Source: a virus | Strand: one strand, 5' to 3' | Length of the DNA: 20,404 nucleotides | IMG/VR virus record: IMGVR_UViG_3300048797_000024 | Span: 1 to 20,404 of that record | In this document: positions 3,596 through 20,404 of the stretch, one piece after another | Numbering within the stretch: position 1 is the first letter of the stretch | How the letters are laid out: each line of letters begins with the position of its first letter | The notes under the pieces: generated by a model | Seen by the model: only the letters and a program-made list of their open reading frames with translations | Databases searched by the model: none | What the model was told of the DNA's origin: nothing | Program-made: the position numbers and the translations under genes

Positions 3596-3624
3596 CTCCG
3601 GGTCATCTAAGTGGATACCCCATC
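3591..3624 (+). repeat. direct copy (C) of the three-copy element
   Basis: This copy is 30/34 identical to 1844-1877. Its last 26 bases (3599-3624) are the perfect reverse complement of 1090-1115. It forms the start of a 19-codon ORF, just as copy B starts the 91-aa ORF. Confidence 0.95.
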
Positions 3625-10066: not shown

Positions 10067-10259
10067 GCAACTTCCTATTGGAAAGAGGCGCGTCATCTCT
10101 CTCACCCAGATCGCGGTAGTCATCGCCGGAGCCTGGCTGATCCTTGTCGGCGCGAACTCCGAACCGAGCACCACGTTGACGCTGGTCGCCGGCATCGCGA
10201 TCGTCGTGCTGGTGCTGATCGACTCGGACTTTGTGCAGACGTATCGCACCCGCGCATAG
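10063..10259 (+). pseudogene. two-TM small membrane protein, apparent -1 frameshift
   Basis: Starting at ATG 10063 (overlapping the portal TGA) the frame reads MSNFLLER and then hits a stop at 10117-10119. In the -1 frame a continuous stretch from ~10083 to the TAG at 10257-10259 encodes KRRVISLTQIAVVIAGAWLI, then LVGANSEPSTTLTLVAGIAI, then VVLVLIDSDFVQTYRTRA. These are two clear hydrophobic helices with a basic N-terminus and a polar loop. That frame has no ATG, GTG or TTG start of its own. One extra A in the run at 10081-10084 would give MSNFLLEKRRVISL and restore the gene. Alternatives are an ATT start at 10077, programmed slippage, or a sequencing error. Function is unknown; holin-like topology is only a suggestion. 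Confidence 0.6.
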
Positions 10260-10294
10260 CTTTGAGTAGCTTTTCGTAGGCTTGGCGCTATGCT
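10256..10294 (+). promoter_or_regulatory. promoter with phased (A/G)TAG boxes and -10 TATGCT
   Basis: ATAG (10256-10259) and GTAG at 10266-10269 and 10276-10279 are spaced exactly 10 bp apart, within TAGCTTT-like repeats. TATGCT (10289-10294) ends 6 nt before GTG 10301, so the fibre mRNA is probably leaderless. Here the last box lies 13 bp before the -10, against 8 bp in the other two members of this promoter set. Confidence 0.55.
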
Positions 10295-10300
10295 TGTGCC

Positions 10301-10855
10301 GTGGCTTTCACGCAAACCACCGTCATAGGCAGATTGCACCTGGCGAACGGCGAACCCGCGAGCTGCGTGCCAGTGACCGCGGCGCTGTCGAAAACGATCC
10401 ACAACGGGTCATCGCAAGCACCGGTCGGCACGACGACGGTCTCGACGAGCGCCACCGGGGACTTCGCGTTCACGTTGCCGTCGAATAGCGACGAGGGCAC
10501 GTTCCCTGCCGGCTCGCACTACGCGTTTAAATGCGCTGCGACTGGGTTGAACCAGGAAGCGGTGGTTCCGCCGAGCGAGGAGCCGGTGTTGCTGACGTCG
10601 CTGGCTACCGCTGGCGGTGGGGTTGGTGCGACTGGACCTACTGGGCCTACGGGTGGGACGGGCGCGAAAGGTGCGACGGGACCGTCTGGTGGTCCGACCG
10701 GCGCAACTGGTCCCGAAGGCGGCACTGGCGGCACTGGTGGCACGGGTGGGACTGGGCCGGTCGCTGGACCTGCCGCGTTCGTCAACCCGTCTGGCGGCAC
10801 GACCGCAGAAGTGATCGAATCCTTGATCGCCGCTGGGATGATGAAAGCGTCCTGA
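10301..10855 (+). CDS. collagen-like head fibre/decoration protein
   Basis: The 184-aa protein has a beta-rich N-terminal domain (1-103, starting [20 protein letters not shown]). A glycine-rich collagen-like region follows at ~107-156, with [11 protein letters not shown] and [14 protein letters not shown] runs. The short C-terminal tail is [17 protein letters not shown]. Collagen-like G-x-y stretches form trimeric rods in phage fibres. The C-terminal T-x-x-E-V-I-x-x-L-I-x-A-G-[LM]-M tail resembles the ends of known head fibres and small phage structural proteins. Location between portal and protease suggests a capsid-surface fibre, not a tail fibre. GTG 10301 is preceded by a leaderless-type promoter. 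Some triplets are interrupted, so a perfect collagen helix is not certain. Confidence 0.75.
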
Positions 10856-14902: not shown

Positions 14903-15673
14903 ATGGAAAAGGAATGCCAAGCCTGCCACGTCCCGAAGCCGCTCGAGGAGTTCAGGAAGCACCGCAACACTCCCGACGGCCACACGCACATATGCCTTGC
15001 GTGCCTGCGAGAGCAACGGGGGCCGCTGCTCGACCTGACGCCGGACGAGAAACGCAAGCGGCGGCTAGCGAAGATTCGTCAGCGTCATGCGTCAGACCCG
15101 GAGTACCGCAAGCGCCATCGGGGCCATCAGATCAAAACGGCCTACGGACTGCTACCCGAGCAGTACCAGGCGCTGGTCGATCGCCAGGACGGGCTCTGTG
15201 CGATTTGCCACCAACCACCGGGCGATGACCGGGCGCTCCACATCGACCACAACCACGAGACCGGGGCGATCCGTGGCTTGCTGTGCTTTAGCTGCAACGC
15301 ATCGCTTGGGCACTTCGGAGATGATCCGACAAGGTTGCGTGCTGCCGCGCACTACCTAGAGACGTGCGTGCCAATCGTCGTTGAGCGGGACGTACGTCAG
15401 AGGGCGCGTGCGCAGTGCGGCACGATGAGCGGCTACTCACGTCATGCGGCACTGGGCGAGCCAAGATGCGAGTCGTGCCTGCGGGCAAAGCGTGAGTACG
15501 ACCGGAAGATGCGAGCCGAGCGCGCGACTGGCCGTGAGCGGAAGCGTCGCGTGGAGGCGGTGTGCGGCACGACGAGCGGCTATGTCCGTCATTACAAACT
15601 GGGGGAGAAGCCGTGCGAAGCGTGTAAAGCGGCGATGAGCGAGTACCACATCAACCGGCGGGCTAGTCGGTAG
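14903..15673 (+). CDS. recombination endonuclease VII-type HNH nuclease with extra zinc repeats
   Basis: The 256-aa protein has three zones. Residues 5-34 form a likely zinc ribbon (C5-x2-C8, C31-x2-C34) as in other phage HNH proteins. Residues ~80-153 are an endonuclease VII core: YGLLPEQYQALVDRQDGLCA, C99-x2-C102, LHIDHNHETG (H113-H118), LLCFSCN (C128-x2-C131), RLRAAAHYL. Endonuclease VII resolves branched DNA; related free-standing copies act as homing-type nucleases. Two C-terminal repeats follow, CGTMSGYSRH...LGEPRCESC (172-192) and CGTTSGYVRH...LGEKPCEAC (221-241), probably small zinc knuckles for DNA contact. It sits between capsid and connector genes with its own promoter, suggesting insertion. 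Confidence 0.9.
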   Translation: MEKECQACHVPKPLEEFRKHRNTPDGHTHICLACLREQRGPLLDLTPDEKRKRRLAKIRQRHASDPEYRKRHRGHQIKTAYGLLPEQYQALVDRQDGLCAICHQPPGDDRALHIDHNHETGAIRGLLCFSCNASLGHFGDDPTRLRAAAHYLETCVPIVVERDVRQRARAQCGTMSGYSRHAALGEPRCESCLRAKREYDRKMRAERATGRERKRRVEAVCGTTSGYVRHYKLGEKPCEACKAAMSEYHINRRASR

Positions 15674-17379: not shown

Positions 17380-17898
17380 ATGAGCCGCCTATCGATGAGG
17401 GAAGCGATCACGGCTTTCTTGCAGGCAGCCAACATCGAGTACGTCGGGACCGTGTACCCGGCACGGCCGGAAATAGTGCCCGAGCAAGCCTACGAAGAAA
17501 ATCGGTTGGCGGAAGCCGTCATGTCGGAAGGCGGGTCGAGCTCGATCCTGGTCGTGAATCTCCCGTCGGACAACCGGCAGCGCAGGGCGGATACGGGCCG
17601 TGGCGCGGTCAACGATCAGATCACCTACAAGGCGGTGATCGAGGTGTTCTTCGCGAACGTGAAAGGCGAAGCCGTGCAGGCGCAGACGGACTACGACCAG
17701 ACCGTTGACGCGATCGTGACCGCGATCCGGGAGAACGCGACCTTGGGCGCCCCCAGCACCGTGTGGAGCGCCGGCGAGTACTCGGCTGGCGTAGACCATG
17801 TGCAGGGCGAGCCGTACACGGACGCCGATGGGATGACGGTGTTCATCTCGGGCGTGATCCGCTTTGATGCCATGTCGTGGATCGCCGGGAACGTCTGA
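17380..17898 (+). CDS. putative tail terminator/neck protein
   Basis: ATG 17380 follows the connector stop immediately. The 172-aa product begins with a helix (MREAITAFLQAANIEYVG), then has beta strands and a long helix (YDQTVDAIVTAIRENATLG). It ends with DGMTVFISGVIRFDAMSW. This alternation and its place before the tail tube gene fit tail terminator or tail-completion proteins (lambda gpU type), which cap the tail tube. I see no diagnostic motif, so the assignment is positional inference. The following gap carries the phased GTAG promoter. Confidence 0.6.
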   Translation: MSRLSMREAITAFLQAANIEYVGTVYPARPEIVPEQAYEENRLAEAVMSEGGSSSILVVNLPSDNRQRRADTGRGAVNDQITYKAVIEVFFANVKGEAVQAQTDYDQTVDAIVTAIRENATLGAPSTVWSAGEYSAGVDHVQGEPYTDADGMTVFISGVIRFDAMSWIAGNV

Positions 17899-17929: not shown

Positions 17930-18151
17930 ATGGCCAAGTTCACGAACTTCGACAGCAACCGGCGCGTGTGGCTGAACCTGCACCGCGAGGACGGCCGCAC
18001 GTTGGAGCTCGAGCCGGGCGAGACGGTGGACCTTGATCTGCCGAAGGACTTCAGCGACCCGCACCTGCGGCCCGTTGTCGTGAAGAAGGGCGCCGCAAAG
18101 TCTGAGAAGCCGGTCGACCCGGCACCAATCGACCATGAGGAGAAGCCGTGA
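17930..18151 (+). CDS. small hypothetical beta-rich protein before the tail tube, 73 aa
   Basis: The product begins MAKFTNFDSNRRVWLNLHRE and continues DGRTLELEPGETVDLDLPKD, then DPHLRPVVVKKG, with an acidic/proline tail. Small phage proteins with the L-x-P-G-E-x-x-x-[LI] turn near tail genes are common but of unknown role. I choose ATG 17930 instead of 17924 because of the 7-nt distance from the -10 box. The TGA overlaps the GTG of the tail tube gene. GAGGAGA near its end serves as the ribosome binding site for the tail tube gene. Confidence 0.7.
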   Translation: MAKFTNFDSNRRVWLNLHREDGRTLELEPGETVDLDLPKDFSDPHLRPVVVKKGAAKSEKPVDPAPIDHEEKP

Positions 18152-19563
18152 GCTTTTCAGCGATCCCAGTTCCCGAGTCTACAATCGGCATCGCGCTCGA
18201 GACGGAACGCGGCGTTCCTGTCCAGCCAACGGCCTGGCTGCCCGTCCTCTCTCCCAAGTACAAGCCGGACCTCCAGCTCCTACCCGACGAGGGCCTGCGC
18301 GGCAGCATGGTCAACAAATACGATCTGATCCCCGGCTTGCGCTTTGACAGTCACGGCTGGGACTCGTATCCGTACCTGGACACGTTCCCGATATTCCTGC
18401 GGGCGCTGCTCGGGTCGAAAGACTCGCTGACCGCGGTCCTCACCGCGACGGAACTGGTCGCGGAAGCGAAAGTCGGCGACAAAAAAATACTGACGTTGAA
18501 CGAAATCCCGCTCGGCACGGTGTTCGTGATCGACCAGGGCTTGCCGGCTACCGAAGAGACCGTCGTCTCGCTCAAATCGGTCAAAGTCAAAGCGGGCGAA
18601 TACGAAACGGAATGTGCCGCGTTGAAATACACGCATGTCGCCACGTCGAAAGTGACGATCAACACGACCGAACTGTTGACCGAAGCTAAAGCGGGCGCGA
18701 CGACCGTCAAAACGGTGACTGACCCGGTAGCCGTGGGAGGGTTCATTGTCGTCGGCACTGGCGCGGGGGCGCAGGAGACCTGCCGGGTTACGAAAGTGAC
18801 CGAAGTCAAAGCGGGCGAATACACGCTCACGCTCCAGTATCCGCTGGCGTTCACGCACCTTGCTAAAGCGGTCGTGACGGCGCTCAGCACACACGCGTTT
18901 AGTTTGCTGAACAACAGCCCGGCGACGGGGAACCAGCCGCCGTCATGCACGATCACGGACTATGCGGGGGAGACGAACTGGCGTCAGTTGCCGGCGGCGC
19001 AGCTCGACTCGATCGCACTGTCTGGTAGCGCGGAGGCACTGCCAAAGGCCGCGATGGTGTGGATGGCGAACGCTGCGATCACGCCGAGCCCGCCGTCCCC
19101 GTCTTTCTCGACCGCTGAGGTGCCGCCCGGGTGGACGGTGCAGTGCAGTATCGGCGGGACGCAGCTCGGGTATCTGGTGGACTGGAGCTTCGACCTGAAG
19201 CGGAACGTGAAGAACGTGCCCGCGATCACCGGCACGGAGAACTTCTACCAGCACTTTGCCGGCGCTTTGGCTCTCACCGGGAAGATTGTCGTGCTGGAGG
19301 ATCCGAGCGCGACGTGGCTGACGGACTACCAGAAGGGGACGCTCGAGTCGATCGACTTGACGCTCTCGGATGTGGAGTCGGGTTTCGCGTTGAACCTGCA
19401 TAGCTCAAAGATGAAGTTTGCCACCGGCGATCTGGACCGAAGCAAGGAGTGGGTGGAGGTCCCGTTGGAGTTCGACCCGATCCCGAGCGCGGAAGATGCC
19501 TTGGCGGGTGGCGTGTCGCCGATCGTCTGCACAGTTGCTAACGCAACTACTACGGAATTCTGA
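18148..19563 (+). CDS. major tail tube protein with two inserted beta modules
   Basis: The 471-aa protein has a tail tube-like N-terminus (PESTIGIALETERGVPVQPT, then YDLIPGLRFDSHGWDSYPYL) and C-terminus (FDLKRNVKNVPAITGTENFY, HFAGAL, ESIDLTLSDVESGFALNL). Tail tube rings form the conduit for DNA. Residues ~101-171 and ~174-245 are tandem beta modules (T-E-L-[VL]-x-E-A-K-x-G; K-x-K-A-G-E-Y; Y-T-H or F-T-H). All 13 lysines there use AAA, while all 8 lysines after residue 295 use AAG, suggesting a separate origin. GTG 18148 overlaps the upstream stop, with GAGGAGA before it. A strong hairpin follows the stop, and a truncated relative lies at 20287. Confidence 0.82.
   Translation: MSFSAIPVPESTIGIALETERGVPVQPTAWLPVLSPKYKPDLQLLPDEGLRGSMVNKYDLIPGLRFDSHGWDSYPYLDTFPIFLRALLGSKDSLTAVLTATELVAEAKVGDKKILTLNEIPLGTVFVIDQGLPATEETVVSLKSVKVKAGEYETECAALKYTHVATSKVTINTTELLTEAKAGATTVKTVTDPVAVGGFIVVGTGAGAQETCRVTKVTEVKAGEYTLTLQYPLAFTHLAKAVVTALSTHAFSLLNNSPATGNQPPSCTITDYAGETNWRQLPAAQLDSIALSGSAEALPKAAMVWMANAAITPSPPSPSFSTAEVPPGWTVQCSIGGTQLGYLVDWSFDLKRNVKNVPAITGTENFYQHFAGALALTGKIVVLEDPSATWLTDYQKGTLESIDLTLSDVESGFALNLHSSKMKFATGDLDRSKEWVEVPLEFDPIPSAEDALAGGVSPIVCTVANATTTEF
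18448..18882 (+). repeat. tandem duplicated beta module within the tail tube gene
   Basis: Two modules of ~71 codons (18448-18660 and 18667-18882) share their protein pattern and an identical 18-nt stretch, GTCAAAGCGGGCGAATAC, at 18586-18603 and 18805-18822. A third, more diverged copy is in the connector gene (about 16942-17148). Confidence 0.8.
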
Positions 19564-19576
19564 GCTAGCACGCCAA

Positions 19577-19610
19577 CGAGCCGCCGGAGGGAGCAGTCCC
19601 CGGCGGCTCG
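19577..19610 (+). terminator. strong hairpin between convergent genes, likely bidirectional terminator
   Basis: CGAGCCGCCGG (19577-19587) pairs perfectly over 11 bp with 19600-19610 around a 12-nt loop. It lies 14 bp after the tail tube stop and 43 bp from the stop of the minus-strand gene. There is no T-run on either side, as is common in high-GC actinobacteria. Confidence 0.7.
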
Positions 19611-19652
19611 AAGATGGGTGTGACGTGGTGCTGCCTGCTCCTTGGTGCTCGT

Positions 19653-20186
19653 CTACAGGCCGCAGACCTTGAAGCCGTAGGACCTGACCGCTTCACTGGC
19701 TTCAACCTTCGCCAGTTCGGCCCTTGCGCTTGCGGTGCCTATGGCGACTGGTTCATCGTTGTGAAGCGCAACACCGTAGTTGGTCGTTTCAACGAGGTAG
19801 ATGCTCTCCGCGTTGAAGTAACCGATCAGTTCGTTGCGACCCACACTCGGGCGAGACACTTTGCGGAGCTTCTGAAACGTCGCGAGCGTTGCGTGCGCGG
19901 AGCTCTCGATTTCGGCAGATACCGCAGCCTCATTTTCAAGGGCGTACACGAGATTCGTGCTCCTGGAGTCCGAGAAGGCCGGCGCCAGCTCCGTGTTCAT
20001 CGTGGTGCAGAGCTTGTCGGCGGCCTTGATGTACTTGGCCTTGCTGACGCCCTTATGGTGGGAGGGCTTTGGGGGGGCTCCTTCGGTGCCGACGCCCGCG
20101 AACGCTGAGGCGCTTGCGGGTGCGGCGGCTGCGAGAGCCATCATTGAGAGGTAGAGAGCTACGGGGATGTTGAGTTTGCGTGTCAT
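19653..20186 (-). CDS. secreted protein, moron-like, convergent to tail genes
   Basis: The 177-aa protein has a classic signal peptide: MTRK, a hydrophobic stretch IPVALYLSMMALAAAAP, and an ASASAF cleavage region near residue 27. The mature part includes KAKYIKAADKLCTTMNTELA and ends YGFKVCGL, with two cysteines that could form a disulfide. I associate this Y-I-x-x-A-D-x-[IL]-C ... G-[FL]-K-x-C-G pattern with secreted proteins of Thermoleophilia; this was not searched. AGGAG lies 8-9 nt before the ATG on the minus strand. It is the only minus-strand gene in the window and lies within the tail region, so lysogenic conversion is a reasonable guess. Function is unknown. Confidence 0.8.
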   Translation of the reverse strand: MTRKLNIPVALYLSMMALAAAAPASASAFAGVGTEGAPPKPSHHKGVSKAKYIKAADKLCTTMNTELAPAFSDSRSTNLVYALENEAAVSAEIESSAHATLATFQKLRKVSRPSVGRNELIGYFNAESIYLVETTNYGVALHNDEPVAIGTASARAELAKVEASEAVRSYGFKVCGL

Positions 20187-20209
20187 GGCTTCTGCTCCTT
20201 CGTTTGGTT

Positions 20210-20223
20210 GATAGTCCTCTATC
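20210..20223 (-). promoter_or_regulatory. inverted repeat in the leader of the secreted-protein gene
   Basis: GATAG (20210-20214) and CTATC (20219-20223) form a perfect 5-bp inverted repeat with a 4-bp centre, 24 bp before the start codon on the minus strand. It could be an operator or overlap the promoter; I see no certain -10/-35 pair. The region 20187-20286 holds no other gene. Confidence 0.35.
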
Positions 20224-20286
20224 GACCGTTTGGGCGTCGGCCTTTAGCGCTCTGGCCACTTGTACTAGCGGTAGACACGCACGGTA

Positions 20287-20404
20287 AAGCACTTCGCTGG
20301 TGCACTCGAGGCGACCGCCAAGGTTGTCGTGCTGGACGATCCTAAAGCGACTTGGCTTACGGCCTTCCAGGAAGGCGCGTCAGAGTCGATAGACCTCACG
20401 TTGT
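20287..20404 (+). pseudogene. 5'-truncated, diverged tail tube gene fragment (runs off window)
   Basis: In frame from 20290 the DNA encodes HFAGALEATAKVVVLDDPKA, then TWLTAFQEGASESIDLTL. This matches residues 369-406 of the tail tube protein at 27 of 38 positions with no gaps. Homology stops abruptly at ~20288. Just upstream the frame has a TAG (20272-20274) and no ATG, GTG or TTG. It is therefore a 3' piece of a related but different tail tube allele, left to the right of the secreted-protein gene. Its end lies outside the window. Confidence 0.82.

Follow-up and report, generated by a model that had tools for sequence, protein, structure and literature searches.

Probable recombination debris, including a tail tube gene relic, at a moron hotspot of a soil siphophage

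The window analysed here is the complete IMG/VR record IMGVR_UViG_3300048797_000024 (20,404 bp) of a tailed phage, and it stops inside a second, partial tail tube gene, the relic with which this report is concerned. To the left of the relic lie the intact tail tube gene (tubeA), a hairpin and an accessory gene of the type known as a moron (moron 1), whose start is embedded in a leader repeat (R). The window copy of this repeat, R1, is followed directly by the relic, whose source gene we call tubeB (Table 1). Contig IMGVR_UViG_3300048800_000060 (L007, L011) supplied the sequence to the right of the window. The start of L007 overlapped window positions 20161–20404 at 243 of 244 bases. Reading rightward, L007 contained the relic up to the tube stop, a second moron on the minus strand (moron 2), small minus-strand open reading frames (ORFs), a second leader copy (R2) and a gene starting at 1359, which we call the tail chaperone gene on the basis of its position only. 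Downstream of this gene, we found matches to tail-completion, tape-measure and distal-tail families.

Table 1. Features of the locus, in window coordinates unless L007 is named.
Feature	Position	Strand	Description
tubeA, intact tail tube gene	18148..19563	+	471 residues, GTG start; PF18906 Phage_tube_2, E 2.5e-12; phrog_290, tail
Hairpin between convergent tube and moron 1 genes	19577..19610		-36 kcal/mol, z -4.9
Moron 1, signal-peptide protein	19653..20186	-	177 residues; no known family; homologue 56% identical at the same place in L003
Leader repeat R1	20112..20287		signal-peptide start, ribosome-binding site, palindrome GATAG-N4-CTATC (20210-20223), putative promoter region
Sole mismatch in the 244-bp L007 overlap	20277		A/G difference; exactly 127 bases short of the window end
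tubeB relic, 5′ part	20288..20404	+	begins at tube codon 368; in L007 reaches codon 471, stop at L007 439-441
Moron 2	L007 435-872	-	145 residues; stop overlaps tubeB stop; N-terminal hydrophobic stretch; unrelated to moron 1

The translation from 20287/20288, KHFAGALEATAKVVVLDDPKATWLTAFQEGASESIDLTL, was identical to tube residues 368–406 at 27 of 39 positions (27 of 38 over residues 369–406), with a local protein score of 143, whereas the best of 1000 shuffles reached 57. In DNA, positions 19250–19362 and 20288–20400 matched at 72%, and a sub-stretch gave an E value of 1.4e-12. The original prediction, which had described this match and its abrupt start at about 20288, was right in its numbers and coordinates, and its view of the fragment as the relic of a displaced tube gene was borne out by L007, where positions 127–441 carry the remainder up to the tube stop. 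The whole relic comprises 104 intact codons (residues 368–471). It has no internal stop, its differences lie mostly at third codon positions, and the ratio of nonsynonymous to synonymous substitution rates (dN/dS) is ~ 0.2. Until recently, then, the relic belonged to a functional tube gene in a different lineage.

The same prediction had named the C-terminus of a different full-length downstream gene as the competing explanation. This was ruled out by an in-frame TAG at 20272, just 5′ of the relic, and by the normal tube C-terminus in L007, where the 3′ remainder is that of another phage's tube gene. The comparison of the two alleles, also proposed there, gave 73% protein identity over the 104 codons between the relic and tubeA, with 73% to the tube of L017, 71% to those of L006 and L014, and 69–71% to several others. 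Since the relic is about as distant from its own tube as from other lineages, it is foreign, and a duplication of the phage's own tube gene was ruled out because the relic is no nearer to tubeA than to those lineages. We take the relic to be non-functional, as it has no leader of its own and spans less than one quarter of the tube protein. Within tubeA itself, we also observed an internal repeat (18440–18900; a 20-base exact repeat, 219 bp apart, with similar protein stretches), which corresponds to a segment of ~ 75 residues missing in shorter tubes, e.g., that of L005.

The second leader copy, R2 (L007 1132–1307), lies ~ 1.18 kb further right and is identical to R1 at 175 of 176 positions. 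As R covers the first ~ 25 codons of moron 1, R2 gives a truncated second copy of this gene, which runs into unrelated residues after these codons. The version of the leader in the relative L003 was far more diverged than R1 and R2 are from each other. The sequence to the right of the relic therefore also derives from a locus that carried moron 1. The sequence after CGCACGGTAA, leading from R2 to the chaperone gene, matched L003 and L008, so the join between R2 and the chaperone gene is native and ancestral.

A profile built from four tubes brought in 23 loci, and the counts below refer to the 23 relatives in which both the tube and the chaperone are readable. Relatives without the moron, which the original prediction had suggested looking for, do exist: in 16 of the 23 (L027 and L031 among them look near-identical), tube and chaperone are adjacent, with a gap of only ~ 20–75 bp. 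Six others carried minus-strand cargo at the locus (L003, L008, L016, L017 and the near-identical pair L019/L022), and L030 had a tail-completion-like gene and another ORF between tube and chaperone. In L017, the cargo is a minus-strand secreted protein (DUF4352) that also overlaps the tube stop. A second tube piece was present in none of the 23 relatives. By this distribution, the gap between tube and chaperone is a moron hotspot. On the other side of the tube, L014 (1002–1851) and L019 (2435–3463) have gaps of ~ 0.8–1 kb that separate the tube from the upstream gene, a homologue of window 17380–17898, and cargo may have a second site there.

The same hairpin and a related leader bracketed the cargo in the window, L003, L008 and L016; the leader with its palindrome is kept upstream of the cargo gene in all four genomes, and the hairpin was found in the records of no other relatives, i.e., only alongside the cassette. 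L003 and L008 encode the same moron within 751 bp of identical sequence (L003 4053–4803), which starts one base ahead of the hairpin and reaches 28 bp into the chaperone gene, while the flanking sequences have diverged (~ 85% DNA identity for the tubes and ~ 55% for the chaperones). The window and L003 form the complementary pattern: their tubes are 97% identical, tube and hairpin together are 97–99% common to both, and the near-identity ends 10 bases past the hairpin. The main protein of L016 shares only ~ 24 residues with moron 1, just behind the signal peptide, and is otherwise unrelated. The shared block and the complementary pattern together show that cassettes are exchanged here, with hairpin and leader as the visible borders. 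The hairpin is probably a two-way terminator and the left boundary of the cassette. A bolder scheme, in which the hairpin together with the leader and its promoter, ribosome site and signal peptide would be a reusable frame for swapping secreted proteins, stacked or amplified in tandem by leader duplication between tube and chaperone and gained or lost by recombination at the 176-bp repeats, seems improbable to us.

Moron 1 matched nothing in known families, PADLOC or solved structures, and moron 2 gave just a sub-threshold match to DUF7336 and a weak match to a PHROG of unknown function. Neither matched a known defence or toxin family, with PADLOC applied to both. Searches of phage records returned distantly related tubes only and nothing related to moron 1 or moron 2, and tube-profile scans of 84,980 prokaryote genomes detected no tube relative and no prophage relative. 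The AlphaFold2 model of moron 1 (mean predicted local distance difference test score, pLDDT, of 44) was too poor for use. Given that moron 1 has a signal peptide and moron 2 a hydrophobic stretch near its N-terminus, our guess is a role at the host cell surface, and we tentatively suggest that both may be envelope-directed proteins made for the host cell, e.g., for superinfection exclusion.

We consider it likely that the fragment is debris of homology-free recombination between two related soil siphophages at this hotspot. Phage A would have carried tubeA, the hairpin, moron 1 (minus strand), R and the chaperone gene, in this order, and phage B would have carried tubeB with the convergent, minus-strand moron 2 overlapping its stop. 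In the recombinant, the phage A leader is present in two near-identical copies of 176 bp, and these enclose ~ 1,004 bp from B, with the last 104 tube codons, moron 2, the small minus-strand ORFs and the 3′ end of another gene. This chunk was probably one native piece, because the overlap of moron 2 with the tubeB stop has its counterpart in the layout of L017. There are two joins without homology, one between the end of R and tube codon 368, and the other between the end of the B gene and moron 1 codon ~ 25. Such an event would have been tolerated with the essential genes whole, i.e., tubeA intact and the chaperone still preceded by R2, its native leader copy. No version of the history breaks the tube or the chaperone gene, and this alone explains the survival of the product. 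R1 would drive moron 1, leftward transcription of the moron 2 block may now start from R2, and the relic would be lost via deletion or recombination between the repeats.

Two routes to this arrangement were weighed. In a one-step capture, with both phages in the same cell, the replicating A genome would switch at the end of R to the tube gene of B, copy ~ 1 kb and return 176 bp upstream, producing an insertion with target duplication; alternatively, a small circle of the chunk and R would integrate by homologous recombination at R. The near-identity of R1 and R2 and the native join between R2 and the chaperone gene agree with this route, as does the pattern of contig ends discussed below, which implies reads linking the G form of R to the relic beside those linking the A form, as for tandem copies, circles or strain variants. 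However, we have no direct evidence for circles, tandem copies or the switching mechanism, and strain variation explains the A/G pattern equally well. We regard one-step capture as a serious possibility, though not one that we would call probable.

In the second route, a resident tubeB would have been entered at codon 368 by a segment that brought a full tubeA, the hairpin and moron 1, and only the 3′ end of tubeB would have stayed behind. It leads to the same final map with one tube and one chaperone in each intermediate, and the 97–99% of tubeA and hairpin shared with L003 indicates that these two are mobile between genomes. In the simple form put forward in the original prediction, a single insertion of tube, terminator and moron into a resident tube gene, this route does not account for the locus, because the second moron, the 176-bp direct repeat with its truncated moron 1 and the two unmatched joins are left unexplained. 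The resident must already have been a hybrid of tubeB, moron 2, truncated moron 1, R and the chaperone gene, and its R must have been almost identical to that of the donor, even though R diverges fast between relatives. Two crosses via such a hybrid appear rather unlikely to us. Both routes give the observed map, which cannot separate them.

Several points count against recombination between phages A and B as set out above. Phage B itself was not found, and the data do not settle in which order the events took place or which way the insertion went. The window and L007 are probably from one assembly, and the junction is thus without confirmation from an independent sample. Moreover, the leader has no promoter matching the sigma-70 consensus, and the hairpin at 19577–19610 has no T-run.

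An assembly or library chimera at the contig end would be suggested by the window stopping 117 bp past the join, and by the absence of upstream homology to relatives at that join. Nevertheless, the same join, with a different allele nearby, opens a contig of 10.7 kb that is coherent through the tube stop, the convergently overlapping gene, R2 and the tail genes. L011 opens with 127 bp that recur exactly inside the contig (1–127 = 1181–1307) and closes likewise (10567–10693 = 10237–10363). These end repeats and the 127-base tail of the window are as expected if the contigs stop at vertices of a de Bruijn graph with k = 127. Such ends would imply reads that link R to the relic in its A form as well as in its G form, which argues against a one-off chimera while also suggesting that the two contigs stem from one assembly, and we consider a chimera very unlikely. 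The closing repeat (reverse-strand numbering) lies within a collagen-like GATGPTGP gene at the contig end.

The original prediction had also likened the locus to mobile units that rebuild the gene they interrupt. A dedicated mobile element of the homing-endonuclease or integrase type, carrying a replacement 3′ end of its target gene, would leave a similar map of intact gene, cargo and 3′ remnant, and HNH-type endonuclease genes occur elsewhere in these genomes. However, family searches with both morons detected neither a nuclease nor a recombinase domain. TubeA and the relic differ at ~ 28–33% of bases, with no identical core, at the join or elsewhere, and the cargo of most relatives lies at or past the tube stop rather than inside the gene. 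We saw neither a gene for a recombinase nor an att-like core of identical sequence nor any preference for a target, so the likeness found no support, and a dedicated element is, in our view, the least credible of the explanations considered. As for the endonuclease genes, a recombination endonuclease VII-like gene (window 14903–15673; PF02945, E 1.5e-25) directly follows the phrog_13692 gene at the capsid position, and an HNH endonuclease gene (L007 4969–5439; PF13392) lies between the tape measure and distal tail genes, and is absent there in L003.

Other features were noted elsewhere in the window. A further collagen-like ORF spans 10301–10855. The contig starts within an array of seven 30-bp tandem repeats (1–207), which encode a repeated Ser-rich unit of 10 residues. 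An element of 25–26 bases, CGGGTCATCTAAGTGGATACCCCATC and variants, occurs three times (1091–1115 on the minus strand, 1852–1876 and 3599–3624 on the plus strand), with its copies at the edges of small left-side genes, and is possibly a regulatory or boundary box.

By the time mosaic joins of phages come into view, selection has usually cleaned them up, whereas at this locus the remains of both tubes, both cargo genes and a fresh direct repeat can still be read, an unusually complete trace of the event. Among the relatives, there are also empty sites and a cassette that was exchanged recently and has exact borders. The locus therefore illustrates step by step how morons are acquired and build up, and its conserved boundary sequences are usable as search targets.

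Integrative elements and endonuclease-linked units can restore the 3′ end of the gene that they enter. The locus resembles them in having an intact gene, cargo and a 3′ remnant in a row, and differs in that its cargo has no detected integrase or nuclease and that the gene and the remnant share no identical core. The locus also resembles phage morons. A passage of PMC3029335, citing earlier work, describes a moron as DNA in one genome that is absent from a relative, typically an ORF between a promoter and a terminator. Here too, an extra gene with its own leader and a 3′ hairpin stands between genes that are contiguous in relatives (16 of 23). Unlike typical morons, those at this locus lie on the strand opposite the late genes, hairpin and leader are conserved across differing cargo, and the relic of a tube gene separates two stacked morons. 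The Tab moron of Pseudomonas phage JBD26 (PMC10884400) is likewise a small accessory gene that lies in the late region and resembles no known family; we liken it to the genes described here without claiming any sequence similarity. PMC3029335 also reviews illegitimate recombination and boundary sequences, and it discusses how modules are exchanged where such sequences are short and conserved. The hairpin and leader recall this kind of exchange, as they flank cargo that is identical (the 751-bp cassette of L003 and L008), 56% identical or unrelated (L016), whereas the relic's own joins lack homology and resemble illegitimate recombination. The locus is ordinary phage mosaicism, well explained by known processes, and not a new kind of mobile element.
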